Positions 194-58,424 of a stretch of DNA of 64,000 nt are shown one piece after another. Under the pieces are notes generated by a model, which was not told where the DNA came from, did no database searches, and saw only the letters and a list, made by a program, of their open reading frames with translations. This stretch comes from Bacteriovoracaceae bacterium (lineage in GTDB: Bacteria; Bdellovibrionota; Bacteriovoracia; Bacteriovoracales; Bacteriovoracaceae). The position numbers were made by a program, and so were the translations under genes. Every line of letters starts with the position of its first letter. Position 1 is the first letter of the stretch. The stretch is from assembly GCA_947441615.1 (NCBI GenBank), contig CANEUH010000022.1, forward strand, positions 1-64,000. The letters run 5' to 3'.

Positions 194-222
194 TTGCAGA
201 AGAACAGGGTGCGCCATACAAT
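194..222 (+). promoter_or_regulatory. ftsK promoter placing the start site on the ATG
   Basis: TTGCAG (194-199), a 17-bp spacer and TACAAT (217-222, 5/6 match to the -10 consensus). The expected start site, seven bases past the -10, is base 229, the A of the ftsK ATG. No Shine-Dalgarno precedes the ATG, so a leaderless mRNA is inferred. The -35 is weak. Confidence 0.55.
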
Positions 223-228
223 TTAAGT

Positions 229-2601
229 ATGGAAAAAAAAATCTTAAAGTTTCAATTATACTCCCTCTTTATTCTCACAACCCTCAATCTAGTTTATTTT
301 TATTATCGGGATAATTTGCCTGATAATTATTATGAAATTAGTTATCAAAACTCCTCGATCAATTTTTTTACTTACTATTTTTTCACCTTACTCGCGAATT
401 TTGGGTACTGGTGTGGAATCTGGATTACGGCCTCATTTATAACTTTTGCTATTTTACACACCTTTATTTTGACCAAAAAAAAGGATGTAAAAAATCAAAT
501 CGTAATTGCTACTCTTATCCCATTAACCATTTGTCTTTGCTATTTTGTACTTCCTGTCACTATTGGAGAGGGTCTCTTTTTTCTTATGAAAGAATATTTA
601 AGCTCTCTTACAATTTTCTTCTCTATTCTATTTTTTGGTTCTAGCTTCTTTTATCTCGTTTCAGAGAAAAACTTTTTTAAAACAGCAAACTGGATCTGGA
701 AAAAAATTCTTAATTCTATTGAATTCATTAAAACTCAAGATTTTTCAATCTTAAAATCCGCGAAAATTGTTCAAGTAAAAAATAAAATTCTCTCACTCAC
801 ACTTCGTTTTAAAGAATTACAACTAAGTAAAACGATAGTAACTGCCTCGCCAAAACTAAAGATTACTGATTCTCCAAATATTTCTGAAAACATGACTCAA
901 AGAAAACTTCCTGTTGAAGAGCTTATGGAAGCTGATGACACTGAAGAAGTTCAACATCATGAAACTGATGATGAGGAAGAACTAGATGAAGATGAATTTA
1001 ATGATTCTTTAGACGATGAACATGAGATGGATGAAACTGAAGTTGAGGAGTTGGAGGAAGTAGAATCTCCATTTGAAACAAAGAAAAAAGTTGAAGATAA
1101 ATTTTTTGAAAGTGAAGAACTCATAAATTGTCTTATACCGAAAAATCAATCTCATAAAATCAGTGATCCTTCAGATAACTATTTTACAACGATCGCTCGT
1201 GCGATCGAAGAAAAATTAAAAGAATTCAATATCAGTGCCCAAATCATAAATGTTCTTAAGGGCCCAGTAGTAGATACATTTGAACTGGAACTTGGAGCAG
1301 GTGTTAAGGTTGCTGGAGTGACAAATAGAACTGATGATCTCTCTCTTGCACTCATGGGTGCACCTATACGTATGGTTTATCCAATGAAAGGAAAATCCAC
1401 AATTGGAATTGAGGTTCCTAGGAATCCTCGCGATGTGATCTATCTTGATGAAGTTTTAAAATCCCCTCATTTTAATAACACGAGCTACAAACTACCAATC
1501 GCAATGGGTAAAGATGCCTACGGTGATGCAGCTGTTATTGACCTTGCGGCAACCCCGCATTTACTAGTCGCTGGTACAACGGGTGCTGGTAAATCAGTAT
1601 TCGTGAATACACTTTTAGTTTCGCTCATTATTAAATTTTCGCCAAAAAAATTACGTTTAATTATGCTTGATCCAAAACAGTTGGAACTAGCTCTTTATCA
1701 AAATCTTCCACACCTCATCATGCCTGTCGTGACGGATCCATCTGTTGCTTCAGCAGCACTCCTTTGGGCCATTGATGAAATGGAAAGACGATATTCATTG
1801 CTCAAAGATTTTGGTGTAAAAAACATCGAAGGATTTAATAAGAAAATTACAGGAGCTGGTACAGATCTCACTTGCAGGATAAATAAATACTATCCAGATG
1901 CAGAAGTTGTGGGGTTTGAGCTTCCTTACATCGTTGTTGTCGTTGATGAATTTGCTGATCTCATGCTCTCAAAATCTGGCAAGGCGATTGAAACATCTAT
2001 TTCTCGGTTAGCTGCTAAGGCACGAGCTTCTGGTATTCATATTGTTCTCGCAACACAAAGACCTTCGACCGATATTATTACGGGTGTCATTAAAGCAAAT
2101 TTTCCAACTCGTGTGTCCTTTAGAGTTTTCACGAATATTGACTCTAGGGTTATTCTTGATGGAATAGGAGCGGAGAAACTTCTTGGTAAAGGGGACATGC
2201 TCTTTAAACAGGGAATTGATATCCTTCGTATGCACTCAGCTTTTGTAAATGAAGATGAAATTGAAGCCCTGGTAAGTAAACTCTCTACCCTTCCATCACA
2301 ATATGATCCAGGTGCGATGGAGTTTATTGAGAATAATGGAATTGTGGACACCGATGTTGATGGAATCACTTCTGATGCTGAAACAGGTGGACTCAAAGAC
2401 GAAAAATATGATGAGGCCGTGAGATGCGTTGCGATGCATCGAGTTGCCAGCGCTTCGTTCCTCCAAAGAAGACTTGGAGTAGGCTATAACCGAGCAGCTA
2501 ATTTAATAGAAGAAATGGAGCGTCATGGTGTGGTTGGACCAGCTCAAGGCTCTAAGCCTCGGAAAGTTTTAGTACCTCCACCCGCTGATTCTGCTCAGTA
2601 A
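229..2601 (+). CDS. ftsK: DNA translocase FtsK
   Basis: Septal DNA translocase that pumps chromosome ends apart at division. The N-terminal ~150 residues hold about four membrane segments. A very acidic linker follows (residues ~230-285, runs of D and E). Then comes the RecA-like motor with Walker A GTTGAGKS (449-456) and Walker B VVVVDEF near 570. The C-terminal ~65 residues form the winged-helix gamma domain that in E. coli reads KOPS and contacts XerD. At 790 residues it is shorter than E. coli FtsK (1329) because the linker is short and acidic rather than Pro/Gln-rich. It stands alone behind an rRNA operon. The start lacks a ribosome binding site and may be leaderless. Confidence 0.97.
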   Translation: MEKKILKFQLYSLFILTTLNLVYFYYRDNLPDNYYEISYQNSSINFFTYYFFTLLANFGYWCGIWITASFITFAILHTFILTKKKDVKNQIVIATLIPLTICLCYFVLPVTIGEGLFFLMKEYLSSLTIFFSILFFGSSFFYLVSEKNFFKTANWIWKKILNSIEFIKTQDFSILKSAKIVQVKNKILSLTLRFKELQLSKTIVTASPKLKITDSPNISENMTQRKLPVEELMEADDTEEVQHHETDDEEELDEDEFNDSLDDEHEMDETEVEELEEVESPFETKKKVEDKFFESEELINCLIPKNQSHKISDPSDNYFTTIARAIEEKLKEFNISAQIINVLKGPVVDTFELELGAGVKVAGVTNRTDDLSLALMGAPIRMVYPMKGKSTIGIEVPRNPRDVIYLDEVLKSPHFNNTSYKLPIAMGKDAYGDAAVIDLAATPHLLVAGTTGAGKSVFVNTLLVSLIIKFSPKKLRLIMLDPKQLELALYQNLPHLIMPVVTDPSVASAALLWAIDEMERRYSLLKDFGVKNIEGFNKKITGAGTDLTCRINKYYPDAEVVGFELPYIVVVVDEFADLMLSKSGKAIETSISRLAAKARASGIHIVLATQRPSTDIITGVIKANFPTRVSFRVFTNIDSRVILDGIGAEKLLGKGDMLFKQGIDILRMHSAFVNEDEIEALVSKLSTLPSQYDPGAMEFIENNGIVDTDVDGITSDAETGGLKDEKYDEAVRCVAMHRVASASFLQRRLGVGYNRAANLIEEMERHGVVGPAQGSKPRKVLVPPPADSAQ

Positions 2602-2609
2602 TTTAATCC

Positions 2610-2639
2610 GTTTGGGGCCACTTTTTAGTCGCTCCAAAC
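2610..2639 (+). terminator. Hairpin after ftsK, probable terminator without a T-tract
   Basis: A 13-position stem (2610-2622 with 2627-2639) with one G-U pair and one mismatch closes on a TTTT loop eight bases after the ftsK stop. No T-run follows, so it may be a weak or factor-assisted terminator or an RNA-stabilising 3' hairpin. Confidence 0.45.
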
Positions 2640-2674
2640 TGATATTCAAAGCCTTGATTTCACTCTCAAAACGC

Positions 2675-2703
2675 TTGCCCTAAACAAGTCACCATGTTAA
2701 ATA
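2675..2703 (+). promoter_or_regulatory. Candidate rpsB promoter
   Basis: TTGCCC (2675-2680) followed after 16-17 bp by TTAAAT/TAAATA (2697-2703). A start near 2710 would give a leader of about 105 nt containing the structured element described next. The match to consensus is moderate. Confidence 0.35.
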
Positions 2704-2723
2704 CTCTAGACCAAATAATTACA

Positions 2724-2809
2724 TCCCCCACAAGGGGAAATCTAATCACTTTAATTGGTTGGTCCATCAAGTAGATGGCACAAAGTGATTCGATCTAACC
2801 ACCAAGGAG
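2724..2809 (+). promoter_or_regulatory. Structured rpsB leader, candidate S2 autoregulatory element
   Basis: A CCCC-acaa-GGGG-type hairpin (2726-2737) is followed by a perfect 9-bp stem AATCACTTT (2744-2752) / AAAGTGATT (2782-2790). Nested inside is CCATC-aagta-GATGG (2764-2778). In the unpaired part, TTGGTTGGT (2755-2763) can pair with ACC-ACCAA (2798-2805) with one bulged T. That pseudoknot reaches the first bases of the Shine-Dalgarno AAGGAG (2804-2809). In E. coli, S2 represses rpsB-tsf through a structured leader, so the same role is inferred here. Confidence 0.55.
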
Positions 2810-2814
2810 TTCTC

Positions 2815-3606
2815 ATGTCTAAGTTACAAGTCAAGCAATTGCTTGAGGCCGGCGCCCACTTCGGTCACCAAACACACAAGTGGAATCCAAAGATGAAGAA
2901 GTATGTTTACGGCGAACGTAACGGCATCTACATCATCGATCTTCAACAAACTCTTCCTCTTGCTGAAAAAGCTTATGAGTTTTTAAAGAAGACATCTCAG
3001 TCTGGTAAGTCTGTTCTTTTCGTAGGAACAAAAAGACAAGCTTCAGACATGGTTAAGAAAAAAGCTGAAGAATGTGGTGCATACCATGTTACTTCTCGTT
3101 GGCTAGGTGGAATGCTTACAAACTACAAAACTATCGCTCTCTCTATCGATAAACTACGTAAAGTAGAAAAAATGAAAGAGAACGGTGATTTCAAACTTCT
3201 TACAAAAAAAGAGCAATCTAATATTGAGAAAGAAGTAGAAAAGCTAGAGAAGAACCTTGGCGGGATTAAGAATATGAGAAAGCTTCCAGGAGCTATCTTT
3301 ATTATCGATCCAAACAATGAGCACATTGCTGTTAAAGAAGCGAACGTTCTTGGAATTCCTGTTGTAGCTGTTACAGATACAAACTGTGACCCTACTGGAA
3401 TTGAGTACGTCGTTCCAGGAAACGATGACGCTTTAAAATCAATCACACTTTTCTTAGATTACTTCTCAAACGCAATCGTTGAAGGCGGATCTAAGGCTCG
3501 TAAAGATTCTGGTGAAGACCAAAATCGTGATCTTGATCTTGAAACAGAAATCCTTGCTAAGTATGAAAAGGATATCGATCTTCAAGGTGAAGAAGACGCT
3601 GAATAA
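2815..3606 (+). CDS. rpsB: Small ribosomal subunit protein uS2
   Basis: Ribosomal protein S2, a 30S component that binds late near the head-platform junction and is needed to recruit S1. The N-terminus carries the family signature LLEAGAHFGHQTHKWNPKM, with VLFVGTKRQA and SRWLGGMLTN further on and a DTNCDPTGIEYVVPGNDDA segment near the C-terminal part. The 263-residue length is normal (E. coli 241), with an acidic tail. The start is the ATG five bases after AAGGAG; an upstream in-frame TTG falls inside the leader stem and is rejected. It is co-transcribed with tsf 31 bp downstream. Confidence 0.98.
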   Translation: MSKLQVKQLLEAGAHFGHQTHKWNPKMKKYVYGERNGIYIIDLQQTLPLAEKAYEFLKKTSQSGKSVLFVGTKRQASDMVKKKAEECGAYHVTSRWLGGMLTNYKTIALSIDKLRKVEKMKENGDFKLLTKKEQSNIEKEVEKLEKNLGGIKNMRKLPGAIFIIDPNNEHIAVKEANVLGIPVVAVTDTNCDPTGIEYVVPGNDDALKSITLFLDYFSNAIVEGGSKARKDSGEDQNRDLDLETEILAKYEKDIDLQGEEDAE

Positions 3607-3637
3607 TTTTTTTAAAAATTTATAAAGGATAACGACC

Positions 3638-4555
3638 ATGGCCTATACAGCAGCTGACGTAAAAAATCTTCGTGAAACAACTGGTGCGGGGATGATGGAT
3701 TGTAAAAAAGCTTTAGACGAAACTGGAGATTTCCAGAAAGCCGTTGATTATCTTCGTGCAAAAGGCCTTGCGGCTGCTGCTAAAAAGCAATCTCGTGTTG
3801 CTGCAGAAGGTATGATCGCTGCAAACGTTAAAGGCAAACTTGCCGCTTTAGTAGAAGTTAACTGTGAAACAGATTTCGTTGCAAAAAACGATGCGTTCCA
3901 AGCTTTTGCTCACACAGCAGCTAACGTTGCTGTCGATGCAAACCTTACTACAATTGAAGAGCTCCTTAGCGCTAAAATCGCTAACGGTTTAACAGTTAAA
4001 GATAATGTTTCTGAGCTAACTATTAAGATTGGTGAAAAAATCGATCTACGTCGTGTAGCTGTTGTAAAACTAGATGGTAACGGAATGATTGGTTCATACG
4101 TGCATTCTGGTAAAATCGGTGTGCTTACTCGTGTAGAAACAGACAAAGACATCAATACGCATGATGCATTTAAAGATCTCGTGAAAGACCTTTGTATGCA
4201 AATTGCAGCAGCTGATCCAAAGTTTTTAAATGCTGGCGAAATCGATGAAACTTATAAGGCAAAAGAAGCAGAGATCTATGCTGCTCAACTCAAAGAGCAA
4301 GGTAAGCCAGATGCAATGATTCCAAACATTGTAAAAGGTAAACTCAATAAGCTTGCTTCAGAAGTTTGTCTTTATGAGCAGTCTTTTGTTAAGGATCCAG
4401 ATACGACTGTTGGTAAATTAATTGAAAAAGTTGCAAAAGAAACAGGGGCAACAATCAAAGTTACCAAGTTTATTAAACTGAACCTTGGTGAAGGTATTGA
4501 GAAGAAGTCAGAAAACTTCGCTGAAGAGATTGCAAAAATTACTGGGAACAATTAA
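3638..4555 (+). CDS. tsf: Elongation factor Ts
   Basis: Nucleotide exchange factor that releases GDP from EF-Tu. The N-terminal UBA-like module has VKNLRETTGAGMMDCKKAL (residues ~9-27). The EF-Tu contact motif follows near residue 80 as ETDFVAKNDAFQ. The 305 residues are slightly longer than E. coli (283), and dimerisation and C-terminal modules are present. The start follows 'aaaggataacgacc', giving a Shine-Dalgarno at normal spacing. It sits behind rpsB, the near-universal order, and an intrinsic terminator follows. Confidence 0.98.
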   Translation: MAYTAADVKNLRETTGAGMMDCKKALDETGDFQKAVDYLRAKGLAAAAKKQSRVAAEGMIAANVKGKLAALVEVNCETDFVAKNDAFQAFAHTAANVAVDANLTTIEELLSAKIANGLTVKDNVSELTIKIGEKIDLRRVAVVKLDGNGMIGSYVHSGKIGVLTRVETDKDINTHDAFKDLVKDLCMQIAAADPKFLNAGEIDETYKAKEAEIYAAQLKEQGKPDAMIPNIVKGKLNKLASEVCLYEQSFVKDPDTTVGKLIEKVAKETGATIKVTKFIKLNLGEGIEKKSENFAEEIAKITGNN

Positions 4556-4573
4556 TCCCAAATAAGATTCAAG

Positions 4574-4605
4574 AAAAGGGGACTTCAAAGTCCCCTTTTC
4601 CTTTT
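4574..4605 (+). terminator. Intrinsic terminator between tsf and pyrH
   Basis: Perfect 12-bp stem AAAAGGGGACTT (4574-4585) / AAGTCCCCTTTT (4588-4599) followed by CCTTTTT. It ends only 11 bases before the pyrH start codon, so it either closes rpsB-tsf completely or acts as a partial attenuator for pyrH-frr. Confidence 0.88.
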
Positions 4606-4616
4606 TAAAGGGTCTC

Positions 4617-5330
4617 ATGAAATATAATCGTGTTCTCATTAAACTATCAGGCGAAGCTTTAGCTGGAGATCAGGGGTCTGGAATCTCGGGAGATATTCTA
4701 GAGAAAATAAGCTCTGAAATTAAATCCCTTCATCAGACTGGTTGTGAGATTGCAATCGTTGTTGGAGGTGGAAATATTCACCGTGGTGTTGCTGGCGCAA
4801 CATCTGGAATGGATCGTGCGACTTCGGATTATATGGGGATGATGGCAACCGTTATTAATTCTCTCGCCCTTCAAGATGCGCTTGAGAGAAAAGATGTGTA
4901 CACAAGAGTGCTTTCAGCGATTGCTATGCAAGAAGTTGCAGAGCCTTATATTCGTCGCCGTGCTGTTCGCCACCTCGAGAAAAAACGAGTTGTGATTTTC
5001 GCAGCGGGTACAGGGAATCCCTATTTCACAACTGATACCACAGCGGCCCTTCGTGCGAATGAAATACATGCAGAAGTTATTATGAAAGCGACAAAGGTTG
5101 ATGGAATCTACGACAAAGATCCAATGAAACATAAAGATGCAAAGAAATTTGAAAAACTCTCATACATTGAAGTCCTTAATAAGGATTTAAAAGTGATGGA
5201 TTCGACTGCTATTACACTCTGTATGGATAACGATATGGATATTGTCGTCTTCAACATGTTTGAAAGCGGAAATATTGCAAGAGTTGTTAATGGCGAAAAT
5301 ATTGGAACTGTAGTTACTAAAAAAGCATAA
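4617..5330 (+). CDS. pyrH: Uridylate kinase
   Basis: Phosphorylates UMP to UDP in pyrimidine synthesis; the bacterial enzyme is hexameric and of the amino-acid-kinase fold. Visible motifs are IKLSGEAL (residues ~8-15), [10 protein letters not shown] in the phosphate-binding loop, [17 protein letters not shown], and the UMP-site segment [13 protein letters not shown]. The 237-residue length is typical. The start follows AAAGGG closely. It heads the run pyrH-frr-uppS-cdsA-rseP, conserved in many Proteobacteria. The terminator hairpin directly upstream leaves almost no room for a separate promoter. Confidence 0.97.
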
Positions 5331-5342
5331 GGAGATTAGGTT

Positions 5343-5900
5343 ATGATGAAAGAGCTAAAGCCTATACTTGATGATCATATGAATAAAGCGATTAAGTCGC
5401 TTCAAAACCAAATGTCGAAAGTGAGAACTGGTCGTGCAACAGCTTCGGTTCTCGATGGAATTTCTGCAGACTATTACGGTACACCAACTCCTATAAAAAA
5501 CTTAGGTCAGATTTCAACACCAGAAGCACGCCTCCTTCAAATCCAGCCTTTTGATAAGACAGCAATTCAAGCGATTGAAAAAGCGATCCTTGCTGCCAAT
5601 ATTGGTTTAACTCCTGGGAACGATGGAAATTTTATCCGAATTTCCTTCCCGGCACTGACTGAAGATAAACGTAAAGCGTTTGTTAAGGACGTTAAGAAAC
5701 TTGGCGAAGATACAAAGGTTGCGATTAGAAATATTCGTCGTGATCAAAATGATAAAGTAAAAGCTGCTGAAAAAGATAAAAAAGTTTCTGAAGATGAGTC
5801 TAAAAAGATTCAAGATGAAATTCAAAAGATCACAGATAACTTTATTAAGGAAGTTGATAAAGTCGTTGAAGCTAAAGAGAAAGAGCTTTTAACGGTTTAA
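5343..5900 (+). CDS. frr: Ribosome recycling factor
   Basis: Splits post-termination ribosomes together with EF-G. It is a two-domain L-shaped protein that mimics tRNA. The signature KVRTGRATASVLDGISADYYG lies at residues ~26-46 (quoted in part: VRTGRA, YYGTPTP). RDQNDKVK and a long charged helical segment follow to the C-terminus. The length (185) equals E. coli RRF. It lies 12 bp after pyrH, with AAGGAG at the junction, and 7 bp before uppS, so the three are one transcript. Confidence 0.97.
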   Translation: MMKELKPILDDHMNKAIKSLQNQMSKVRTGRATASVLDGISADYYGTPTPIKNLGQISTPEARLLQIQPFDKTAIQAIEKAILAANIGLTPGNDGNFIRISFPALTEDKRKAFVKDVKKLGEDTKVAIRNIRRDQNDKVKAAEKDKKVSEDESKKIQDEIQKITDNFIKEVDKVVEAKEKELLTV

Positions 5901-5907
5901 GGCATTT

Positions 5908-6669
5908 ATGTCTAAGATTAAACATGTCGCCATTATTATGGATGGAAATGGTCGCTGGGCAAAAAGGCGATTCAGACCTCGTATTTGGGGACATGTTCGT
6001 GGCTCTAGTGTTGTTTCCGATATTGTGAAATCTGCTGATGATATTGGTCTCGCTGCACTTACCATGTATGCTTTTTCAACTGAAAATTGGTCAAGACCAC
6101 TTGAAGAAGTTTCCTCTCTCTTTAAATTGTTAAAAAAATTTTTAATTAAAGAGAAGGCAAGGATCCTCGCCAATAATATTAAATTTAAAGTTATTGGCGA
6201 AACTCAATCGCTTCCTCACGAAACCATTTCATTAATTAATGAGATGGAGGAACTGACAAAAAATGCCACAGGTCTAAAACTAACTTTTGCTTTTAATTAC
6301 GGTGGACGCTCTGAAATAGTTAGGGCCGTAAATTCTTTCCAGTTAAGTCACCCTGATCGTCTGATCACAGAAGCTGACCTGAATGGACTTATGTATCGTC
6401 CTGAAACAGGTGATGTTGATCTTATGATCCGAACAGGTGGTGAGCAGAGAATCTCAAATTTTCTTATCTGGCAAATGGCCTATGCCGAATTATATTTTAC
6501 ACCAACAAAATGGCCAGATTTTACACCGAGTGAATTTAAGAAGATTGTTGACCACGTCTCTTTCCGTGAAAGACGGTTTGGTAATGTGAGCCATCAAGGC
6601 GATTTAGGTGATTCAATGGAAAAAGCAGATAATCACAAGACTGCTTTCGTTGAGGGGGCCAAGTACTGA
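5908..6669 (+). CDS. uppS: Undecaprenyl diphosphate synthase
   Basis: Cis-prenyltransferase that extends farnesyl-PP with IPP to C55-PP, the lipid carrier for peptidoglycan and surface polysaccharides. The start motif [13 protein letters not shown] carries the catalytic Asp (D12). [21 protein letters not shown] and the C-terminal [19 protein letters not shown] substrate-binding region are all intact. The 253 residues fit the family. Its stop overlaps the cdsA start by one base (TGATG), implying translational coupling. dxr, which lies between frr and uppS in E. coli, is missing here. Confidence 0.97.
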
Positions 6670-7490
6670 TGTCAAATAATATGACTCGAATCATTTCTGG
6701 ACTGGTTCTTCTCTTAATTGTTGGATTATGTCTTTATATGGGACCTAAGGCTAGCCTTGTTGCCATTGGGCTAATTGGTCTATTTACCATCGATGAAATC
6801 ATCACGAATTTCTACGATCAAAGTCGCTTATCAAAAAAATATATTTTTGCTCAGATCATTTACGTCGGATGCTATTCGTTTTTTAACTTTTATCAGATTA
6901 GTCAATCATCATTTAGCTTCTGGATCTCGGCGGGCATCGTACTCAACGTGCTCCTCTTATGTTATCTTTTTGTTGTGTATAAAAAATCTGAATTACTTCT
7001 AAAAATATTCAAAGCGACCTCTTGGGGTGCTGGCTTTTTTGTCGTGATCCCAATGATTTGTCTTTCTTATATTGTGCATTTTAATAATTGGATCATCTTA
7101 TTTATTGGTCTCATGATTTTAAATTTCATGGTTGATACGGCAGCTTATTTCACCGGAAAAAAATTTGGAAAACATAAGCTTTGGGAAGCCGTGAGTCCTA
7201 AGAAAACGATAGAGGGTTTAGTCGGTGGGGTCATTTTTTCCGTCTTAACAACCAGTGTTTATTGGAATTATTTTGTTGAAGAGGTTAATCCTCTTTTAAT
7301 CATCTTTTTTGTTATTGTCGCTTGTTGCTCTCAAATTGGAGACCTCGCTCAGTCCAAGTTAAAAAGACAGTTTGAAATTAAAGATAGTTCGTCTTTAATT
7401 CCAGGCCATGGTGGAGTATACGATCGAGTTGATAGCTTGATGTTTGTTGCACCTCTTTATGCTTTTTATCTGATGGCGAATTTCCGTTAA
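6669..7490 (+). CDS. cdsA: Phosphatidate cytidylyltransferase
   Basis: Integral membrane enzyme that makes CDP-diacylglycerol from phosphatidate and CTP, the precursor for PssA and PgsA. The family signature sits at residues ~230-255: [20 protein letters not shown] followed by YDRVDS. About seven to eight hydrophobic segments fill the rest. The 273-residue length is normal. The start overlaps the uppS stop. Downstream pssA uses its product, so this cluster couples lipid-carrier and phospholipid synthesis. Confidence 0.95.
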
Positions 7491-7500
7491 GGAATAGTTT

Positions 7501-9051: not shown

Positions 9052-9054
9052 ATT

Positions 9055-14406: not shown

Positions 14407-14435
14407 TTGCAGGATACGAGTTCTTGGGATACTTA
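14407..14435 (+). promoter_or_regulatory. nadC promoter with start site near the ATG
   Basis: TTGCAG (14407-14412, the same -35 as ftsK), a 17-bp spacer and TACTTA (14430-14435). The expected start site is near 14442, three bases before the first nadC ATG. The -10 match is only moderate. Confidence 0.4.
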
Positions 14436-16858: not shown

Positions 16859-17301
16859 AAACGGCAGTAGAAATTATATACGAGACTTTTCCCAGAAGTT
16901 ATTTCTCCCTCATCTTTTGGCTCTGGAGAAAAGGGAATAATCATATTTCCATAAAATTCTTTCGTTTCAGAAATGTCTTTAGGTTTTCGATCAAGCATAA
17001 CAAAAACGGTCTTAAGGATTTTATTTTTTCTCTTAATCTTATAGATCATGCGAGGAATGCGATTAACGATCAAATCCGATCTTACAAACTTCAAATCTTC
17101 TCCATCTAAATTCATTGAAAGAGTGTTGGCATTCGTAAGACTAAAAATGTCGACGAACGTGGAAAATTTAAGTTCATTCAAAATATTAGAACTATTGTTA
17201 TAGACACCATTAACGAGATGGCAATTCGCCTCTGTTGAAGCAAAGCAGTTCATCGAAGTGAATAATAAAAGAGTCCATATAAAACGCATGGGGCGCATCA
17301 T
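16855..17301 (-). CDS. Secreted protein of unknown function
   Basis: 148 residues starting with a signal peptide (MRFIWTLLLFTSMNCFAS), then a beta-rich, basic mature domain with two cysteines (ANCHLV near the N-terminus, NFYCRF at the very end) that could form a disulfide. No family is recognised. Three ATGs compete for the start; none has a Shine-Dalgarno. A TAAAAT element sits exactly seven bases before the first, so the first is preferred. It overlaps nadB by four bases tail to tail. It could be a periplasmic or exported protein. Confidence 0.7.
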   Translation of the reverse strand: MMRPMRFIWTLLLFTSMNCFASTEANCHLVNGVYNNSSNILNELKFSTFVDIFSLTNANTLSMNLDGEDLKFVRSDLIVNRIPRMIYKIKRKNKILKTVFVMLDRKPKDISETKEFYGNMIIPFSPEPKDEGEITSGKSLVYNFYCRF

Positions 17302-24945: not shown

Positions 24946-24974
24946 TTGACTTTTATCCAGGTCTCCCGTACCTT
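24946..24974 (+). promoter_or_regulatory. zapA promoter placing the start site on the ATG
   Basis: TTGACT (24946-24951, 5/6), exactly 17 bp, then TACCTT (24969-24974, 3/6). Seven bases past the -10 is 24981, the A of the zapA ATG, and no Shine-Dalgarno is present. Leaderless transcription is inferred. Confidence 0.5.
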
Positions 24975-24980: not shown

Positions 24981-25271
24981 ATGACTGAAAGTCAGGAAAA
25001 AGAGTTTAACGTTTTAGGTTGTAAGGTTAAGTACCGGCCTCTTCAAAACGATAGTCAAAATGCAAAGGCAGTCATTGAGCTGGTTCTTCGGGAGATCGAA
25101 GAACTTAAGTCAAAGAGGCCTATGCTAAGAGATACTGATGTGGCAGTTTTAGTTGCACTAAAACTCGCATCTGAAAAAATAGAGCTTGAGGATGAATATA
25201 AATTGAACATCATCAAACTCGAAGAATCTCTCGAAATGGCACTTCAAGCTTTAGGGCCTGAAGCGAATTAA
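24981..25271 (+). CDS. zapA: Cell division protein ZapA-like
   Basis: 96-residue protein with the ZapA pattern: a short beta-rich N-terminal head (FNVLGCKVKYRPL) and a long helix with a coiled-coil C-terminus (DTDVAVLVALKLASEKIELE onward). ZapA tetramers bundle FtsZ filaments at the division ring. The context supports it: in many Proteobacteria zapA precedes 6S RNA and the cyclo-ligase gene ygfA, which follows here only two bases after the stop, leaving no room for 6S RNA between them. No ribosome binding site precedes the ATG. Confidence 0.8.
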   Translation: MTESQEKEFNVLGCKVKYRPLQNDSQNAKAVIELVLREIEELKSKRPMLRDTDVAVLVALKLASEKIELEDEYKLNIIKLEESLEMALQALGPEAN

Positions 25272-49996: not shown

Positions 49997-50079
49997 GGTC
50001 GCTCCTTAATATTTCTTAGGATTTCATTCTAATTTCGAGAGGGGATTTTTGCCACCACTAAGAAAACAAAAGCATGGCG

Positions 50080-50565: not shown

Positions 50566-50568
50566 TAT

Positions 50569-50623: not shown

Positions 50624-50649
50624 GCGGCAAACTTTTTTCGGAGTAAATT

Positions 50650-51156: not shown

Positions 51157-51783
51157 TTATTTTTGAATTTGAGACTTTGTTAATCTCTCGAGCTGAAAAC
51201 GATTATCAGTTTTAAACCAATCATTCCCAGAGCCACGTCCCACGGCCTTAAGTAGATCAGTGGAGATTTTACCGTCTTTTAAAATAGATTCATCGATATG
51301 GACGAGTTTCACTTCTCCAGTAATGAGTGATCCCGAGCCTGGTGTCTTACCGTAGCAAAGCATGTCTCTAAAAACGCACTCAAATTGGACAGGTGATTCT
51401 TCCATCCTCTGGGCCTTTACGAGCTCTGAATTTATAGGAGTGAGACCCGTAAATTTAAATTCATCATCACCGAAAGGGAGTTCAGTTGAAGCGAGATTTA
51501 CTTTTTCATAGTTAGTCTCGGTACAAAAGTTCACAACAAACTCTCTCTCTCTTAATATATTTTTGACTGTGTCCTTGAATTCTCCGTCTGAGCTTCTAAT
51601 CATGGGAGAGAAGGCGATGATCATAGGACTCGCAGATACGGCGGTAAAAAATGAAAACGGGGCGAGATTATTAGAGCCATCGATATTTCGAGTAGATATA
51701 ACTGCAATTGGTCTTGGAATAATTGACCCAATTAGAAATTTATAATTCTCTGCAAAAGCACCATTAGTTTGATATGTTTTCAT
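51157..51783 (-). CDS. Flavin reductase-like FMN-binding protein
   Basis: 208 residues of the FMN-binding split-barrel type. IGSIIPRPIAVISTRNIDG and LAPFSFFTAVSASPMIIAFSP carry the pattern of flavoredoxin/flavin reductase family DIM6/NTAB; VVNFC and a C-terminal beta region follow. It probably reduces or binds FMN for an unknown partner. The stop abuts the opposite gene's stop. The start is 21 bp from the divergent MBL gene start, with one symmetric -10 between them. Confidence 0.85.
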   Translation of the reverse strand: MKTYQTNGAFAENYKFLIGSIIPRPIAVISTRNIDGSNNLAPFSFFTAVSASPMIIAFSPMIRSSDGEFKDTVKNILREREFVVNFCTETNYEKVNLASTELPFGDDEFKFTGLTPINSELVKAQRMEESPVQFECVFRDMLCYGKTPGSGSLITGEVKLVHIDESILKDGKISTDLLKAVGRGSGNDWFKTDNRFQLERLTKSQIQK

Positions 51784-51791
51784 AAAAACAG

Positions 51792-51799
51792 TTTATAAG
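51792..51799. promoter_or_regulatory. Shared symmetric -10 of a divergent gene pair
   Basis: TTTATAAG reads TATAAG on the plus strand and TATAAA on the minus strand. Expected starts (about 51806 plus, 51785 minus) fall within 2 bases of the two start codons, 51804/51807 and 51783. Neither gene has a Shine-Dalgarno. TTGATA at 51769-51774 is a possible plus-strand -35 at a long 19-bp spacing. Confidence 0.45.
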
Positions 51800-51803
51800 A
51801 TGG

Positions 51804-52703
51804 ATGATGATGTTTAAAACTCTATTTTTTATTTTCTTGGGCCTAAGTTCTACAAATCTCTTGGCCGCTGTGACAGCTAGGTGGCTAACAGTTGCTTCTG
51901 TTGTTATAGATGACGGAAAAACGCGCCTTTTGTTCGATCCAGCTTGGACTAGACCTGGTGTTTTGCATTGGCTTGGTGTGAATCAGCTCAAGTCTGATGA
52001 AAACTTAGTGAAAAGTGTCCTTTCTAAAAATAAACTGGATCGTGTGGATGCGACTTTTGTGAGTCATTCCCATTTTGATCACGCTATCGATGCTCCCATG
52101 GTTTCGAAACACGCCAAGAGCATTTACTACGCAGATGAGAACAATGAACGGCTAGCTCTTGCTTATAAGGATCCAGCGATCAAGATGGTGAGAGTTAGTC
52201 CTTATAAAAAAATTAAAGTAGGGGACTTTTTGGTGACTCCTCTTCCAAAAGAGCATTCTCAAATTTTGCATTTATTTGATTTTCTCCCTGGGCCTGTTCC
52301 AAAAGATACGAATTTAAGTTTGTGGGACTATTGCGTAGGAGACACTTGGTTTTATTTTATCGAACATCCATTTGGTAATATTCTTATCGACCAGGGAGCT
52401 GCACCGTTTCTGAATCGAATCCCAAAATCAGTTTTAAAAGTGGATGCTCTTATTCAGGGAGTTGCAAATCGAAAAAATGATGAAGTCCTTTTAGAAGGGT
52501 ATGCAAAATCATTTAGACCTAAAGTCTTTATTCCGATCCATTTTGATAATTTCTTCCTTGAGTTTAGTGAGGGCAATGAGGGATTACTTCCGGGTGTGAA
52601 CTTAGATGAGATTTTACTTAAACTAAAACAGACCTATCCTAGCATGAGCGTGAATAGGCCTTGGTATGGAAATCCAATAAAGATCTTAGAAGCTAAAAGA
52701 TAA
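51804..52703 (+). CDS. Secreted metallo-beta-lactamase-fold hydrolase
   Basis: 299 residues. Signal peptide ending SSTNLLAA. The metal motif HSHFDHAIDAP is present, with a later KEHSQ and a C-terminal PIHFDNF. This is the UlaG/RomA-like beta-lactamase branch that acts on lipids or sugars rather than antibiotics; the substrate is unknown. Three consecutive ATGs make the exact start uncertain. Its stop directly abuts the stop of hmgA. Confidence 0.82.
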   Translation: MMMFKTLFFIFLGLSSTNLLAAVTARWLTVASVVIDDGKTRLLFDPAWTRPGVLHWLGVNQLKSDENLVKSVLSKNKLDRVDATFVSHSHFDHAIDAPMVSKHAKSIYYADENNERLALAYKDPAIKMVRVSPYKKIKVGDFLVTPLPKEHSQILHLFDFLPGPVPKDTNLSLWDYCVGDTWFYFIEHPFGNILIDQGAAPFLNRIPKSVLKVDALIQGVANRKNDEVLLEGYAKSFRPKVFIPIHFDNFFLEFSEGNEGLLPGVNLDEILLKLKQTYPSMSVNRPWYGNPIKILEAKR

Positions 52704-53798
52704 CTACTTCAGCATCCAACTCTTCCAATACTCTGTGTTCTCAAATGTTGAAAAGTCTGGAGTCATTTGAAGTGAGTTTTTGGCATCAATCATCACTGCA
52801 AATTCATCGGTGAATTCATTGTTATTGGCATTTTTAAAGGCCTTAGGATGAGGTCCGTGATGAATTCCCTGAGGGTGAAAGGTAATCGCCCCTGCATCGA
52901 TATTATCTCGAGAGAAAAAGTTACCTTGGTGATAGAAGAGAATTTCATCATAATCAATATTCGAGTGGAAAAAGGGAACTTTTAAAACGCCCTCAGACGT
53001 CCACTCAAGTGGACGAGCGACAAAAGAGCAGACCACAAAGTTTTGGGCAACAAACATGGTGTGGCCACTCGGTGGAATATGATAGCGGTGAGAGTTAATA
53101 GGACAATAATCATAGATGGAAATTTTCCAAGCATAAAGGGACCCCTTCCATCCAACTGCATCTAAGGGATTAAAGGGATAAGTTACTTGGGTGATCTTTC
53201 CATGGTGTTTAATATCAACGAGATATTCACTGAGATTTTGCTCAGAACCCAAAGCGGCTTCGGGAATAAATTTCGCCGACTGATCATAGAGAGCATTGGG
53301 CCCTAAAATGCCACGACTAGGCTCTTCAAATTCAGAACTCGATTCTACTTTTAATATTTTCATGGGTTTTGTTACAAAGGTCTTATAAGTTGTGCCCCTG
53401 GGAACAATAACATAATCACCTTTAGTAAGGGGGATATGCCCATAAATGGTTTCCATGAGCCCTTCGCCGTCATGAATAAAAAACATCTCATCAAAATCTG
53501 CGTTTCGATAAAATGTCTCCGGGGTTTTCGTCATGGTTCCTAGATAAACTTGAACATCTTTATTAAAGAGCATTTTTATAAATTTATTTTGAAATGCTGA
53601 TTGATCAAAAAGTGGGGGAAGATTACGAGGTTTTAAATCCCCAGAAATGTTTGTCCAATCAGTTGGCTTATTTTTGTGATAGAGATGAGACACTCGTCCA
53701 AAAAAACCCTTTCTCCCATGCTCCTCTTCAAAAGTTCCTTCTGGGATTTTAACGTGAGCTTGTTTAGTATGAATGCCACTTCTTAAAAAGTTTTCCAT
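52704..53798 (-). CDS. hmgA: Homogentisate 1,2-dioxygenase
   Basis: Opens the ring of homogentisate to maleylacetoacetate in tyrosine and phenylalanine breakdown. The 364 residues fit the shorter bacterial branch (human 445). The iron-binding C-terminal part has FFHSNIDYDEILFYHQGNF and HPQGIHHGPHP, matching the His/Glu/His ligand arrangement. GHTMFVAQNFVVCSFVARPLE (in part) is also typical. It is the last gene of aminotransferase-fumarylacetoacetase-hmgA, nine bases after the hydrolase gene. 4-Hydroxyphenylpyruvate dioxygenase and maleylacetoacetate isomerase are not in the window. Confidence 0.93.
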   Translation of the reverse strand: MENFLRSGIHTKQAHVKIPEGTFEEEHGRKGFFGRVSHLYHKNKPTDWTNISGDLKPRNLPPLFDQSAFQNKFIKMLFNKDVQVYLGTMTKTPETFYRNADFDEMFFIHDGEGLMETIYGHIPLTKGDYVIVPRGTTYKTFVTKPMKILKVESSSEFEEPSRGILGPNALYDQSAKFIPEAALGSEQNLSEYLVDIKHHGKITQVTYPFNPLDAVGWKGSLYAWKISIYDYCPINSHRYHIPPSGHTMFVAQNFVVCSFVARPLEWTSEGVLKVPFFHSNIDYDEILFYHQGNFFSRDNIDAGAITFHPQGIHHGPHPKAFKNANNNEFTDEFAVMIDAKNSLQMTPDFSTFENTEYWKSWMLK

Positions 53799-53807
53799 AA
53801 AGACGTC

Positions 53808-54824
53808 CTAAGGCTTAAAGTTGGGAGTTCCAACAATATTTTTTAAAGTTCCAATTTTATCGATCGTTAATTCCAAGAGATCACCTGGTTGAATCCATCG
53901 ATCGAGTTCAAGTCCGCAACCTGTTCCTACTGTGCCTGAGCCAATAAAGTCTGTTGCTCTAATCCACTCCTCCATACTCATGTGCTCAATCATCTGACCC
54001 CAAGTGTAGTGAGAATCTCCAGAATATCCTCGAGACCATTCTGTACCGTTAACTGCTGCCGTCATCAAAAGATTTGGTTCTTCGTAATTAAATTCATCGA
54101 AAGTCACAATCACTGGGCCCATAACCGAACACCAGTCTTTTCCTTTCGCTGGCCCCAAACGAATCGACATTTCTTTCCGCTGAATATCTCTCGCTGAAAT
54201 ATCATTTAATATGGTGAAACCAAAAATATGTTTTTTAATGTCTTTTTCTTTTACATTTTTTCCATCACGCCCGATCACAACACCCAACTCAAGTTCATAA
54301 TCTAGTTGTTGGGAGTAATAAGGCCAAGGGATCACTTCATCATTTCCAATAAACCCCGTGTTTCCACCCTTGTAGTAAGCAGGAATTTCATACCAAGCAG
54401 CTGGCACAGTTTCATTTCTTTTTTCAAAACCTTTCTTAACGTGCTTTTCATGAGCATAGAAATCTCGGTACATCGCAATTTCATCTAATGGAACATCAAA
54501 AGTCAGGTCATTTGCGTCCAGAATATGTAAAGCAATGTCGGCCTGATTTTTTGTTTTTAAAATACCTCGTGAAGCAAGATCTCCCCAGCACTGAAGAGTT
54601 TCCTGAAGTTTTGAAATTGAAGCATCTTGATAGAATTTTAAAAAAGTAGCTAAAGAATTCGGAGCGAGTAAGTCTGCCCTTTTATCTGGAGCATAGTATC
54701 CAAATCTTTCAAAGATCGCTTGCCAAGTGAAATTAACGTCCACAATCGTTTTATCATTGTAGAGGATTCCTAGGCGTTTTTGAGTTCCAAAAACAGTTGG
54801 GCGTTTGTAGGTGAGAATTTTCAT
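53808..54824 (-). CDS. Fumarylacetoacetate hydrolase family protein
   Basis: 338 residues. Divalent-metal binding motifs of the family are visible: LDYELELGVVIGRDG (acidic ligands E-x-E), ILNDISARDIQRKEM, and GSGTVGTGCGLEL-x-RWIQPGD. Between hmgA and an aromatic-type aminotransferase it is almost certainly fumarylacetoacetase, releasing fumarate and acetoacetate. Its start overlaps the aminotransferase stop by four bases (ATGA). Confidence 0.9.
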   Translation of the reverse strand: MKILTYKRPTVFGTQKRLGILYNDKTIVDVNFTWQAIFERFGYYAPDKRADLLAPNSLATFLKFYQDASISKLQETLQCWGDLASRGILKTKNQADIALHILDANDLTFDVPLDEIAMYRDFYAHEKHVKKGFEKRNETVPAAWYEIPAYYKGGNTGFIGNDEVIPWPYYSQQLDYELELGVVIGRDGKNVKEKDIKKHIFGFTILNDISARDIQRKEMSIRLGPAKGKDWCSVMGPVIVTFDEFNYEEPNLLMTAAVNGTEWSRGYSGDSHYTWGQMIEHMSMEEWIRATDFIGSGTVGTGCGLELDRWIQPGDLLELTIDKIGTLKNIVGTPNFKP

Positions 54825-55948
54825 GATTTCATTCCATATTTTTCTTTATATTTGGGCATGACTTCACTCATGGCTTCATAGAAGTGGTTCATCTCTTCTT
54901 TGGTACCTATCGAAATACGAACATGGTCTGGCATAAGATTTGCTCTTAAAGGACGAATAATCACGCCATGATTTAAGAGTTCATTAAAAAGATAAAGACT
55001 TTTTTCTTCAGAACCAGTTTTGATGGTAATAAAATTTGTCACCGAAGGTATCGGCTTGAATCCATGTTCAGTTAGATAATCAAAAAGAATTTCGTACTGT
55101 TCTTTATTGTTAAGGAGTGTCCGCTCAAGATGAGGATAATCTTTCAGAGCACCAAAGGCACCTTTCTGGGCAATTAGACCTGGTTCAAAGGGAAGTTTAA
55201 CTTTATGTAAATTTCCTATGAGGTAGTCGTGGCCAAAACCATAGCCGCAACGAACTCCCGATATACCGTAGGCCTTAGAAAAAGTACGAAGGGTGATCAC
55301 GTTATCGTAGCGGTAGTTCATTGAATCTGGATAATCCCAATGAGATTGAGCAAATTCAAAGTAAGCTTCATCTAAGATGACAATCGTATGAGAGGGAACG
55401 TGTTTCATTAAGAAATCAAATTCTTCTTTGGTGATATAAGTTCCAGTAGGGTTATCTGGATTTGCGATATAAACGATTTTTGTATTTTCATTAATTTTTT
55501 TTGCCATCGCAACTACGTCGTACTTGTAATCAGCACCACGAGGAACCTGAATGAGTTTTGCTCCAACGGATTTTGCCAAAATAAGAAAGCCAATAAATGT
55601 ATTTTCTGAGGTCACTACTTCTTCATTGGGTTGCAAAAAAGCGCGCACGATATAGCCCATGATTCCTTCTGAGCCATTGCCGAGGATAATATTTTGAGGC
55701 TTAAGATTGTAGAGCCTGCTGAGGGAATTTTTTAATTCATGGGCGAACATATCTGGATAACGGTGAACGTCCCAAAGAGCGTTGGTCATTTCTCGTATCG
55801 CAAAAGGGGAGGGCCCTAGGGGATTTTCATTACTCGCTAACTTTGAAATCTTTGTTAAACCTTTCTCACGAGCAAGCTCATCGATTGGTTTTCCTGCCTG
55901 ATAGACCTCTAGTTTTTCAATGTAATCTGGAACAAGTTTCTTTTGCAT
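54821..55948 (-). CDS. HisC-like class I/II aminotransferase, probable aromatic aminotransferase
   Basis: 375-residue PLP enzyme of the histidinol-phosphate aminotransferase type: KLASNENPLGPSPFAIREM, GNGSEGIM, ANPDNPTGTY, VILDEAYFEF, and the PLP lysine in TLRTFSKAYGISGVRCGYG. HisC-like enzymes often act on aromatic amino acids, and the operon with fumarylacetoacetase and hmgA points to tyrosine transamination. A true HisC role cannot be excluded. The start used (MQKKLVPDYIEK) aligns with HisC; AGAGG lies eight bases before it. An in-frame extension of 12 codons lacks support. Confidence 0.85.
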   Translation of the reverse strand: MQKKLVPDYIEKLEVYQAGKPIDELAREKGLTKISKLASNENPLGPSPFAIREMTNALWDVHRYPDMFAHELKNSLSRLYNLKPQNIILGNGSEGIMGYIVRAFLQPNEEVVTSENTFIGFLILAKSVGAKLIQVPRGADYKYDVVAMAKKINENTKIVYIANPDNPTGTYITKEEFDFLMKHVPSHTIVILDEAYFEFAQSHWDYPDSMNYRYDNVITLRTFSKAYGISGVRCGYGFGHDYLIGNLHKVKLPFEPGLIAQKGAFGALKDYPHLERTLLNNKEQYEILFDYLTEHGFKPIPSVTNFITIKTGSEEKSLYLFNELLNHGVIIRPLRANLMPDHVRISIGTKEEMNHFYEAMSEVMPKYKEKYGMKS

Positions 55949-56122
55949 GAGTGGGCCTCTATATTTTGACTTAAAAAGTACCAAACATGGCCCTAAAGGT
56001 CAGGAGGTTTTCCTAACGAGAGCAGTGCGGCATGAGTCATTTCTTCTAATAATAGGGATCTTATTGATTTTTATGCCTCCAATCTAAAGCTTCCCTTAAT
56101 ATCGTCTCATACGCTATGAATC

Positions 56123-57973
56123 GTGAAAAAATGCGCTATGTTATTGTGCATGGATGAAATTTCGGCTGATCAAATCTTAAAAAATTTTGCGGATGTTTAC
56201 CCTGGTCTTTTGGCCTATGTGGACAAAAATCTAAAAAATCTCTTTATCAACGAGACCTATAGAGAATGGATCGGAAAGCCCAAAGAAGAAATCATTGGCC
56301 ATCACGTTATAGAAGTCGTCGGATTAGAATTTTATGAATCAAGATTAACTTATATTGAAAGGGTTTTACGGGGTGAAGCTTTAAAATTTAGAACCACTCT
56401 CAAGCACTCAAAACTTGGTACTCGTTATGTGGAGCAAATGTACCGGCCTGATTTTGATCAAGATGGATCAGTGAGGGGTTTTTTTGTCATGGCCTATGAT
56501 ATTGATGATCAAGTCTCGGCCTTAAATCAACTTCAAGAAAGTGAAAGATTATTTAGACATTATGTTGAAATGATCCCACATATTGCATTCATCATGGATG
56601 AAAAGGGACTCGTCACTTACTTTAATGAACGTTGGTATGAGTTCACTGGAAAATCCAAAGCTGAGCGCGAGATTTGGGACCCAACGACGATCATTCATCC
56701 CGAGGATTTAGACGAAACTCACCGACGCTGGATGCATTCTCTTGATACGGGTCTTCCTTTTGAAATGGAGTACCGACTAAAGAGAAAAGATGGGAAGTAC
56801 CGTTGGCACCTTTGTCGTTCAGTCGCCATTAAAGACCCTCATGATAAAATTACAAAATGGGTTGGAACCGACACGGATATTCACGACCACAAAGAAATTG
56901 AAGTAAATCAACAACGCTTAATCAAAATTCTTGAAAGTTCATCAGATATTATTGGTTTAACAAATAAAGAAGGTGAGGTGCTTTATTTAAACCATGCAGG
57001 CCGATTAGCTTTTGAAGTCGATGAAGATTATAAAGGAAAAAAGATTGAAGATTTTATTTATCAAGATGACTTAAATTATTTTCAAGAACAGATTATCCCG
57101 AGTCTTATTGAAAAACGAAAAATAGATGGCGATTTGAGATTTAAAAAATTTAAATCAAATGATCATATGAAAGTTAATTTTAGTGGATTTGTAACCACAT
57201 CTGATAAAACAGGGGAGATCACGGGTCTTGCGACAATATCAAAAGATTTAAGTGAGTTGAGACACAAAGAGAAAAAACTTGAAGAGGCCCTCGTTTCCAG
57301 AGATCAGTTTCTCTCGATGGCATCCCATGAATTAAAAACTCCATTGACCTCACTGAAGCTTCAAGCGGAGATAACGTTAAGACATCTGAACTCCAATAAA
57401 ACGATTCCACATGAGAGGCAATTTATCATTGCTCATCAAACAAATCAATTAGTAGGGCGGCTCACAAGATTAATTGATGACATGTTGGATGTTTCAAGAA
57501 TTAGAACAGGGAAGCTCAATATTGATAAATCCGAGCACGAACTTGGTGATATTGTGAGAGAAGCTGTCTTTAGGATGTATTCCCTTTTTGAGGCCGGAGG
57601 ACTCTTAATGCCTTCAATTTATATTGAGGATAAAATTTATGGCTCCTGGGACCGGTTTCGTTTGGAGCAAGTGATAGGAAATCTTTTAACCAATGCTATC
57701 CGATACGGGCGAGGAAGACCCATAGAGATTAGAGTTATCAAAAAATCGGAAATGGCAATTATCTCTGTAAAGGATCAAGGGTATGGAATTGCAGGAGAGG
57801 ATCTAAGACGAATTTTTGACCGATTTGAGAGGGCCATTCATTACACAGAAGTAAGTGGTATGGGTCTTGGGCTTTTTATTTCGAAAGAAATTATTGAGGC
57901 GCATAGAGGTCAAATTTGGGTAGAAAGTGAAATTGATAAGGGATCAACTTTCTATGTTTCTATTCCGTTGTAA
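56123..57973 (+). CDS. PAS-domain sensor histidine kinase
   Basis: 616 residues, no membrane segments, so cytoplasmic. Three PAS domains (about 10-135, 145-260 with a clear PAC motif YRWHLCRSVAI, and 270-385). HisKA with FLSMASHELKTPLTSLK (His402), then HATPase_c with GNLLTNAIRYGRG (N box), KDQGYGIAGEDL (G1) and GMGLGLFISKEI (G2). A hybrid receiver is absent and no response regulator is adjacent, making it an orphan kinase. The start is uncertain: GTG 56123 or ATG 56150; neither has a Shine-Dalgarno. Confidence 0.9.
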   Translation: MKKCAMLLCMDEISADQILKNFADVYPGLLAYVDKNLKNLFINETYREWIGKPKEEIIGHHVIEVVGLEFYESRLTYIERVLRGEALKFRTTLKHSKLGTRYVEQMYRPDFDQDGSVRGFFVMAYDIDDQVSALNQLQESERLFRHYVEMIPHIAFIMDEKGLVTYFNERWYEFTGKSKAEREIWDPTTIIHPEDLDETHRRWMHSLDTGLPFEMEYRLKRKDGKYRWHLCRSVAIKDPHDKITKWVGTDTDIHDHKEIEVNQQRLIKILESSSDIIGLTNKEGEVLYLNHAGRLAFEVDEDYKGKKIEDFIYQDDLNYFQEQIIPSLIEKRKIDGDLRFKKFKSNDHMKVNFSGFVTTSDKTGEITGLATISKDLSELRHKEKKLEEALVSRDQFLSMASHELKTPLTSLKLQAEITLRHLNSNKTIPHERQFIIAHQTNQLVGRLTRLIDDMLDVSRIRTGKLNIDKSEHELGDIVREAVFRMYSLFEAGGLLMPSIYIEDKIYGSWDRFRLEQVIGNLLTNAIRYGRGRPIEIRVIKKSEMAIISVKDQGYGIAGEDLRRIFDRFERAIHYTEVSGMGLGLFISKEIIEAHRGQIWVESEIDKGSTFYVSIPL

Positions 57974-57995
57974 GGAATCATACTTGTGTTAAACT
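57968..57995 (+). promoter_or_regulatory. Promoter placing the start site on the GTG of the next gene
   Basis: TTGTAA (57968-57973, overlapping the kinase stop), 16 bp, then an extended -10 TG-T-TAAACT (57987-57995). Seven bases past it is 58002, the G of the GTG start. No Shine-Dalgarno is present. A third leaderless candidate. Confidence 0.45.
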
Positions 57996-58001
57996 AAAAT
58001 C

Positions 58002-58424
58002 GTGCAAAAAATAACAATCTTGTTTTTTCTTCTTTTTTCCCTTCCATTGCGAGCGGTTCCAGTGAGGGATAATATTCTCTTCGCATTCGAAAAGTGCAAA
58101 GAGCTTGGCATTGATCTAGATAAGGGGCAATTGAAAGAATCGATAAGTTCATTGTTCGATATGGTTTGTCATAAAATTTCCAATTCAGAATTAGAATTTA
58201 ATTGTGACTATTTTGAAACGGGCTCACGTCTCAAACTTAGCTCAGAATCCTTTATAGGAGGGTCAGATCTTGGGATCGCTGAATTGAAGAGTAAGTCTGG
58301 AAAAAGGCTGAAGTTTCTCATTGGAAAACAATTTGCCTCTTACGAGTCGTCTACTGATCATAAAGTTTGTATTGGGATTTATTTATTTGAGCAAGATGCT
58401 TTGAAAAAGAAAACTCTGCGTTAG
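58002..58424 (+). CDS. Small secreted protein of unknown function
   Basis: 140 residues with GTG start. Signal peptide (TILFFLLFSLPLRA), mature protein with four cysteines (EKCKELG, MVCHKIS, FNCDYFE, KVCIGIY) likely paired by disulfides. No family recognised. It follows the histidine kinase by 28 bp but seems to have its own promoter. Confidence 0.68.
   Translation: MQKITILFFLLFSLPLRAVPVRDNILFAFEKCKELGIDLDKGQLKESISSLFDMVCHKISNSELEFNCDYFETGSRLKLSSESFIGGSDLGIAELKSKSGKRLKFLIGKQFASYESSTDHKVCIGIYLFEQDALKKKTLR

Follow-up and report, generated by a model that had tools for sequence, protein, structure and literature searches.

The window analyzed here, by which we mean the whole stretch of 64,000 nucleotides (G000:C22:1-64000), derives from a 3.26-Mb assembly of 40 contigs and carries 57 called genes. 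A comparison of FtsK places Bacteriovorax stolpii and further metagenome-derived genomes of the Bacteriovoracaceae nearest among the named relatives found, with identities of up to 86%; the host therefore belongs to this family, which comprises predatory bacteria and their relatives. Near the beginning of the window, ftsK is preceded by a 5S rRNA gene, a hairpin, and two promoter elements:

11-127, 5S rRNA gene (Rfam RF00001)
138..167, plus strand, terminator-like hairpin with a U-rich 3′ side, downstream of the 5S rRNA gene (fold of 130-175)
194..199, plus strand, ftsK -35 element TTGCAG (from sequence)
217..222, plus strand, ftsK -10 element TACAAT, its last base 7 bases ahead of the start codon, or gap 6 (from sequence)
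229..2601, plus strand, ftsK, 790 aa (Pfam FtsK_SpoIIIE, FtsK_gamma, FtsK_alpha), with transcription predicted to start at A229, the first base of its ATG

Letter by letter, the ftsK promoter reads TTGCAG(194-199)-17-TACAAT(217-222)-gap 6-ATG229, where the gap counts the bases that separate the -10 box from the start codon; start codons, here and throughout, are our own calls rather than protein-verified ones. Promoter scores come from a sigma-70 matrix based on E. coli consensus frequencies. On this scale, the ftsK promoter attains 7.7, a value reached by 0.17% of the 31,510 positions that served as background ahead of called starts. No Shine-Dalgarno match of at least 4 bases, the criterion applied to all starts, lies upstream of ftsK, and the first 60 bases of its mRNA are predicted to be unstructured (0 kcal/mol). 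The segment 130-175 folds with -17.4 kcal/mol (z -4.81), a stability attained in 0 of 200 shuffles, and a simple terminator scan did not flag the hairpin at 138-167. This hairpin likely isolates ftsK from upstream transcription, and the 61 bases between its end and the ftsK ATG leave room for the ftsK promoter.

A second instance of the same layout precedes zapA:

24946..24951, plus strand, zapA -35 element TTGACT (from sequence)
24969..24974, plus strand, zapA -10 element TACCTT, its last base 7 bases ahead of the start codon, or gap 6 (from sequence)
24981..25271, plus strand, zapA, 96 aa (Pfam ZapA PF05164, 25.3 bits, cut-off 23.8), with a predicted transcription start at A24981

Read in the same manner, this promoter is TTGACT(24946-24951)-17-TACCTT(24969-24974)-gap 6-ATG24981, and its score of 7.2 is reached by 0.25% of the 31,510 background positions. 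Upstream of zapA, too, there is no Shine-Dalgarno match of at least 4 bases; the folding of the first 60 bases of the mRNA is not exceptional (z 0.62). A simple promoter scan, at its threshold, flagged neither the ftsK nor the zapA promoter.

An earlier note on this DNA had proposed a third lead promoter, before an open reading frame near the far end of the window:

57968..57995, plus strand, promoter-like TTGTAA-16-TAAACT before GTG58002, score 4.85, indistinguishable from chance
58002..58424, plus strand, 140-aa open reading frame whose N-terminus resembles a signal peptide by eye, an orphan of unproven gene status, coding score -3.9 bits

In all three places, 229, 24981, and 58002, the geometry described in that note is indeed found, namely, a -10 box ending seven bases before the start (gap 6 in our terms) and a -35-like hexamer 16–17 bp further up, and all three are without a Shine-Dalgarno match of at least 4 bases. 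The cases of ftsK and zapA hold. At 58002, only the geometry stands: the layout TTGTAA(57968-57973)-16-TAAACT(57990-57995)-gap 6-GTG58002 has a score that 1.1% of background positions reach, and sites of this grade are expected by chance among the 57 window genes about 0.6 times at gap 6 and 2.5 times over gaps 5–8. The reading frame was not called by the gene finder, has no Pfam match, and in a homologue search of 59 Bacteriovoracaceae genomes returned its self-match only; it may not be a real gene. With its chance-level score, missing gene call, orphan status, and negative coding score, it was dropped as a supporting case. The same befell two weaker examples. The TACTTA box of nadC lies at gap 9 from ATG14445, which has a 5-base Shine-Dalgarno match (AGGTG), and the TTG at 14424 has a promoter score of at most 0.9 over gaps 3–11. 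The gene at 17301 has a -10-like TAAAAT at gap 6, but its full promoter score is only 0.9. Three of the five examples (58002, nadC, 17301) are not supported, and the observation as a whole is partly confirmed.

Whether such promoters recur was assessed in 61 sequences (the window and 60 further stretches) comprising 1,259,775 bases of the 3.26-Mb genome. A gene finder that uses codon usage and ignores both Shine-Dalgarno sequences and promoters called 1064 genes, and the 1033 starts preceded by 150 or more bases of their stretch were kept; background rates were taken per position over gaps 14–59. Promoter scores of at least 7 occur at gap 6 for 17 of the 1033 starts versus 2.24 per position (Poisson 3e-10), and at gaps 5–8 for 32 versus 8.96 expected (2e-9), while TANNNT stands at gap 6 before 54 of the 1033 versus 25.5 (6e-7). 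Among the 412 starts that are separated from the preceding gene by more than 40 bases and lack a Shine-Dalgarno match of 4 or more, promoters at gap 6 number 11 versus 0.59, and TANNNT is found at gaps 5–8 in 87 versus 38.9. Where such far starts do have a Shine-Dalgarno match (n = 273), the frequency of TANNNT at gaps 5–8 falls below background (3, 5, 3, and 2 versus 9.0 per position). No gap-6 peak is seen before internal in-frame ATGs (n = 6562; 6 versus 4.6 at score 7), and the same pipeline applied to 329 starts of E. coli K-12 yielded 0 at gap 6 and 1 over gaps 5–8 versus 3.0 expected. Weak peaks at gaps 6–7 appear in a complete Bdellovibrio-like genome of 3.77 Mb and 50% GC (G117; 6 in 341 starts versus 1.9, p 0.014) and in another genome of the Bacteriovoracaceae (G002; 5 in 342 starts versus 1.7, p 0.03). 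Over the 1.26 of 3.26 Mb sampled, the spacing between -10 box and start, which the earlier note had proposed to compare with chance, is thus far from it; a Shine-Dalgarno match of at least 4 bases at 473 of the 1033 starts likewise bears out the suggestion that two initiation modes exist side by side.

The promoter excess (32 less 8.96) amounts to 2.2% of the 1033 starts, and the TANNNT excess of about 48 in the 412 far, Shine-Dalgarno-free starts to 4.7%, from which we estimate that the predicted leaderless layout is present at 2–5% of starts in this genome. Both percentages may be underestimates, given the noise in the start calls and the existence of -10 boxes that deviate from TANNNT. Forty-four genome-wide candidates begin with ATG (41) or GTG (3), and ATG is not enriched among them compared with all starts (41/44 versus 960/1033). 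The start codon is preceded by a pyrimidine in 30 of 39 candidates versus 226 of 383 other far starts lacking a Shine-Dalgarno match, which fits, though weakly, a transcription start at +1. An EM mixture of background, Shine-Dalgarno, and TA signal was set aside as uninformative: its TA fraction of 0.43 lies inside that of Markov controls (0.38–0.54), and although its weight at gap 6 (0.39) exceeds the controls (0.18–0.30), E. coli also rises above its own (0.48 at gap 8 versus 0.21–0.38).

The same promoters can be followed through orthologs within the Bacteriovoracaceae. Ortholog starts were assigned as the in-frame ATG nearest the aligned first codon, with promoters ignored, and the best promoter was then sought within 50 positions upstream. 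For ftsK, 60 loci were assembled (30 of 33 from one search and 30 from another) and 48 kept, after 4 with identical upstream sequence, 6 without a 5′ match, and 2 without an ATG or enough upstream sequence had been dropped. Every other set began with 30 loci extracted by search, and the host's own copies were included; zapA had matches in 56 of 59 genomes, and all 30 of its extracted loci were kept. The best promoter of ftsK lies at gap 5–8 in 44 of 48 orthologs, where about 4 would be expected by chance (four positions in fifty), and 36 have it exactly at gap 6; of the 48, 2 carry a Shine-Dalgarno match of 4 or more. Where TANNNT stands at gap 5–8, TTG is found 16–18 bases above it in 33 of 46 orthologs versus 14 of 230 at control offsets. 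The zapA promoter is more loosely placed, with its best position at gap 5–8 in 16 of 30 orthologs, at gap 4–11 in 25, and elsewhere in 5. TANNNT is present at gap 5–8 in 21 of the 30 and at gap 5–11 in 28, with TTG at 16–18 in 19 of those 21 (versus 7/105 at control offsets), and a Shine-Dalgarno match of 4 or more occurs in 5 of 30.

Three recognizable core genes, lgt, pilM, and rnhB, were picked from the 44 candidates for the same comparison, and tsf and ftsY, selected because both have Shine-Dalgarno starts in the window, served as controls. Pfam confirms Lgt, RNase HII, EF-Ts, PilM, and, for the ftsY gene, an SRP-type GTPase domain. In the controls, the best promoter falls at gap 5–8 in 1 of 29 tsf orthologs and 0 of 14 ftsY orthologs (16 of 30 ftsY loci having been dropped). 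The lgt promoter lies there in 17 of 29 orthologs, a set that includes three distant copies (36–39% identity), two of them among the 17; TTG stands at 16–18 above TANNNT in 10 of 15 versus 2 of 75 at control offsets. A Shine-Dalgarno match of 4 or more accompanies 2 of the 17 leaderless-type lgt orthologs versus 7 of the 12 others (Fisher p 0.014), which suggests that in lgt the two kinds of start tend to replace one another, and that the modes may be interchangeable over time; ftsK would appear to be held more tightly to one of them. For pilM, the best promoter is at gap 5–8 in 13 of 27 orthologs and TANNNT at gap 5–8 in 25 of 27, with a -35 TTG at 16–18 in 3 of 25 (versus 4/125 at control offsets) and a TG-extended -10 in 12 of 25. 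By contrast with these genes, rnhB was rejected as a conserved leaderless gene, given a best promoter at gap 5–8 in just 2 of 27 orthologs.

We interpret these data to indicate, with a probability of about 0.88, that the ftsK and zapA mRNAs are leaderless or nearly so, being driven by sigma-70-like promoters that abut the reading frame, and that this layout recurs in the genome and in the family. In this mechanism, promoters of the housekeeping type have the -10 box so near the reading frame that RNA polymerase would initiate at the first base of the ATG or no more than a few bases ahead of it, and the resulting ftsK and zapA messages would carry neither a 5′ leader nor a Shine-Dalgarno sequence. 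By analogy with the leaderless mRNAs that have been studied, where the available text describes 70S ribosomes as able to bind an AUG that forms the 5′ end or lies close to it (PMC9031893), a ribosome, probably the 70S particle with initiator tRNA, would engage the 5′-terminal AUG directly. The promoter layout is found side by side with ordinary Shine-Dalgarno genes and recurs in the family at ftsK, zapA, and in part lgt and pilM. The reading given in the earlier note, of promoters that put the transcription start on the start codon beside genes with Shine-Dalgarno sites, is strongly supported by this recurrence, which the two control genes lack, and also by the gap-6 excess across the genome.

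Two other accounts are about equally improbable. Transcription could begin further upstream, yielding leadered mRNAs without a Shine-Dalgarno sequence in which the AT-rich stretch acts as a translation signal, either for ribosomal protein S1 or through low structure. An AT-rich bias at about -20 to -10 may indeed also reflect S1 binding, according to the part of the literature available to us (PMC5397173), and the 560 of 1033 starts without a Shine-Dalgarno match of at least 4 far exceed the leaderless estimate. Yet an S1 signal predicts neither the TTG placed 16–18 bases above TANNNT in the ftsK and zapA orthologs nor the best gap of exactly 6 that prevails in ftsK, and the short interval between hairpin and ftsK ATG offers little space for a promoter plus a leader; we consider this account very unlikely. 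Comparably slim are the chances that the messages bear very short leaders of 1–5 nt and are not strictly leaderless, an idea suggested by the varying distance from -10 to start: the best gap is 9–11 in 9 of 30 zapA orthologs, implying leaders of about 3–5 nt, and the genome-wide promoter excess extends to gap 8 (7 versus 2.2). Against it, gap 6 is the commonest in ftsK (36/48), zapA (9/30), lgt (14/29), and pilM (8/27), which under the usual spacing would put +1 on the A of the ATG. That the called start codons are wrong, with transcription beginning there and translation further down at a leadered start, is the least credible account of all, for although the starts rest on calls, the ftsK ATG and the residues after it (an MEKKILK-like N-terminus) are shared by relatives whose identity is as low as about 45%, and M1 is invariant in 16 aligned ZapA proteins, albeit under a start rule that itself selects an ATG.

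Leaderless mRNAs are an established kind of message, known in many bacteria; the present case is notable for how deeply the layout is conserved at division genes. Their prediction from a TA-like signal is described by Zheng et al. (2011; PMC3160421), in the available text of which 8 of 33 delta-proteobacterial genomes had such genes; the signal, which resembles a -10 box and precedes the start codon by about 10 bp, is the same as ours, and the excess reported here derives from our own score rather than their published algorithm. Unlike here, no single promoter is followed through the orthologs of a family in that text, and the word "bdellovibrio" is absent from its main body. In Caulobacter crescentus, the available text reports 375 leaderless mRNAs, 9.6% of CDSs, identified by 5′ mapping and ribosome profiling, which coexist with leadered ones at similar translation efficiency (PMC4117421); that class is measured, whereas the 2–5% here is predicted only, and neither "ftsK" nor "zapA" occurs in the main text of the study. 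The available account of Mycobacterium tuberculosis has genes of active growth depleted from the leaderless set (PMC3898074), in contrast to the two division genes that are the clearest members here. For the related predator Bdellovibrio bacteriovorus, experimental transcription start data cover the attack phase only, with 140 promoters mapped, 92 of them bearing a FliA-type motif, and "leaderless" is absent from the available text (PMC3627812). Among open-licence papers, we found no report of leaderless messages in Bacteriovorax or Bdellovibrio, and in the leaderless-mRNA literature the single mention of ftsK in the available text of a Sinorhizobium paper concerns a CtrA motif. A gene finder that reportedly models leaderless transcription (Lomsadze et al. 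2018) is among the works cited in the genome paper on Bacteriovorax sp. HI3; a leaderless prediction for the Bacteriovorax group may exist in that work.

Leaderless initiation has often been treated as a genome-level fraction; here, single orthologous promoters can be traced through dozens of genera and, together with the lgt swaps, allow direct tests of how the mode of initiation evolves. For predators of the Bacteriovorax type, leaderless promoters should be taken into account when start codons are annotated and expression constructs designed. It is conceivable, since leaderless messages bypass Shine-Dalgarno selection, that the Bacteriovoracaceae keep a conserved leaderless regulon (the divisome genes ftsK and zapA, the pilus-assembly gene pilM, and lgt), through which the condition of the ribosome pool would adjust septation and envelope genes when these predators pass between the attack and growth phases, a speculative and rather unlikely scheme.

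Beyond the family, the picture for ftsK is mixed: when the candidate start furthest upstream is taken, 7 of 20 genomes have their best promoter at gap 5–8 (scores 4.0 to 9.7, at unverified starts), and two of these belong to the Bdellovibrio-like genus g83. A zapA match was obtained in 10 of 24 genomes of other families, where the best promoter is at gap 5–8 at some listed start in 3 of the 10 loci (scores 9.1, 6.5, and 2.2), one of them strong; the notion of a leaderless zapA throughout the phylum is not supported. For lgt, 23 of 30 loci were examined and 20 placed, 5 of them at gap 5–8, two with low scores. On these counts, the ftsK layout may predate the Bacteriovoracaceae, and that of zapA looks like a trait of the family.

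Within the family Bacteriovoracaceae, the initiation mode of lgt is not fixed: leaderless-type starts, with 5-8 bases between the -10 box and the start codon, alternate with Shine-Dalgarno starts among its orthologs (loci L224-L253), and a Shine-Dalgarno match is found in 2 of 17 leaderless-type orthologs versus 7 of the 12 others.

Inverted repeats lie at two leaderless-type starts:

window 24982-24994 (zapA +2 to +14): TGACT-GAA-AGTCA, an inverted repeat located directly where the zapA mRNA is predicted to begin
L035:16299-16574, minus strand: BrnT-type toxin gene (Pfam PF04365)

Five of the 30 zapA genes compared within the family share the zapA repeat (the window's own copy, L096, L097, L098, and L100), with some base substitutions and loops of differing size among the copies; the repeat could represent an operator, a 5′ hairpin, or simply conserved codons. 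Upstream of the toxin gene lies a leaderless-type promoter with a gap of 5 bases, overlapped by the inverted repeat TGTACATA...TATGTACA, an arrangement that looks as if the gene were autoregulated. When ftsK orthologs sharing 60% identity or more are compared, the spacer bases adjoining the -10 box (about CGCTCC, positions -19 to -14) agree more closely than any promoter consensus would require, hinting at a putative regulator site; the window ftsK carries partly different bases there (211-216).

In tsf, one of the two Shine-Dalgarno control genes, the EF-Ts match of six orthologs (L338-L343; family members G006, G011, G028, G019, G029, and G022) is split into query residues about 1-94 and about 176-305. 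Both pieces lie within one shorter open frame of 216-236 amino acids, and the middle part of EF-Ts appears to have been lost in these members.
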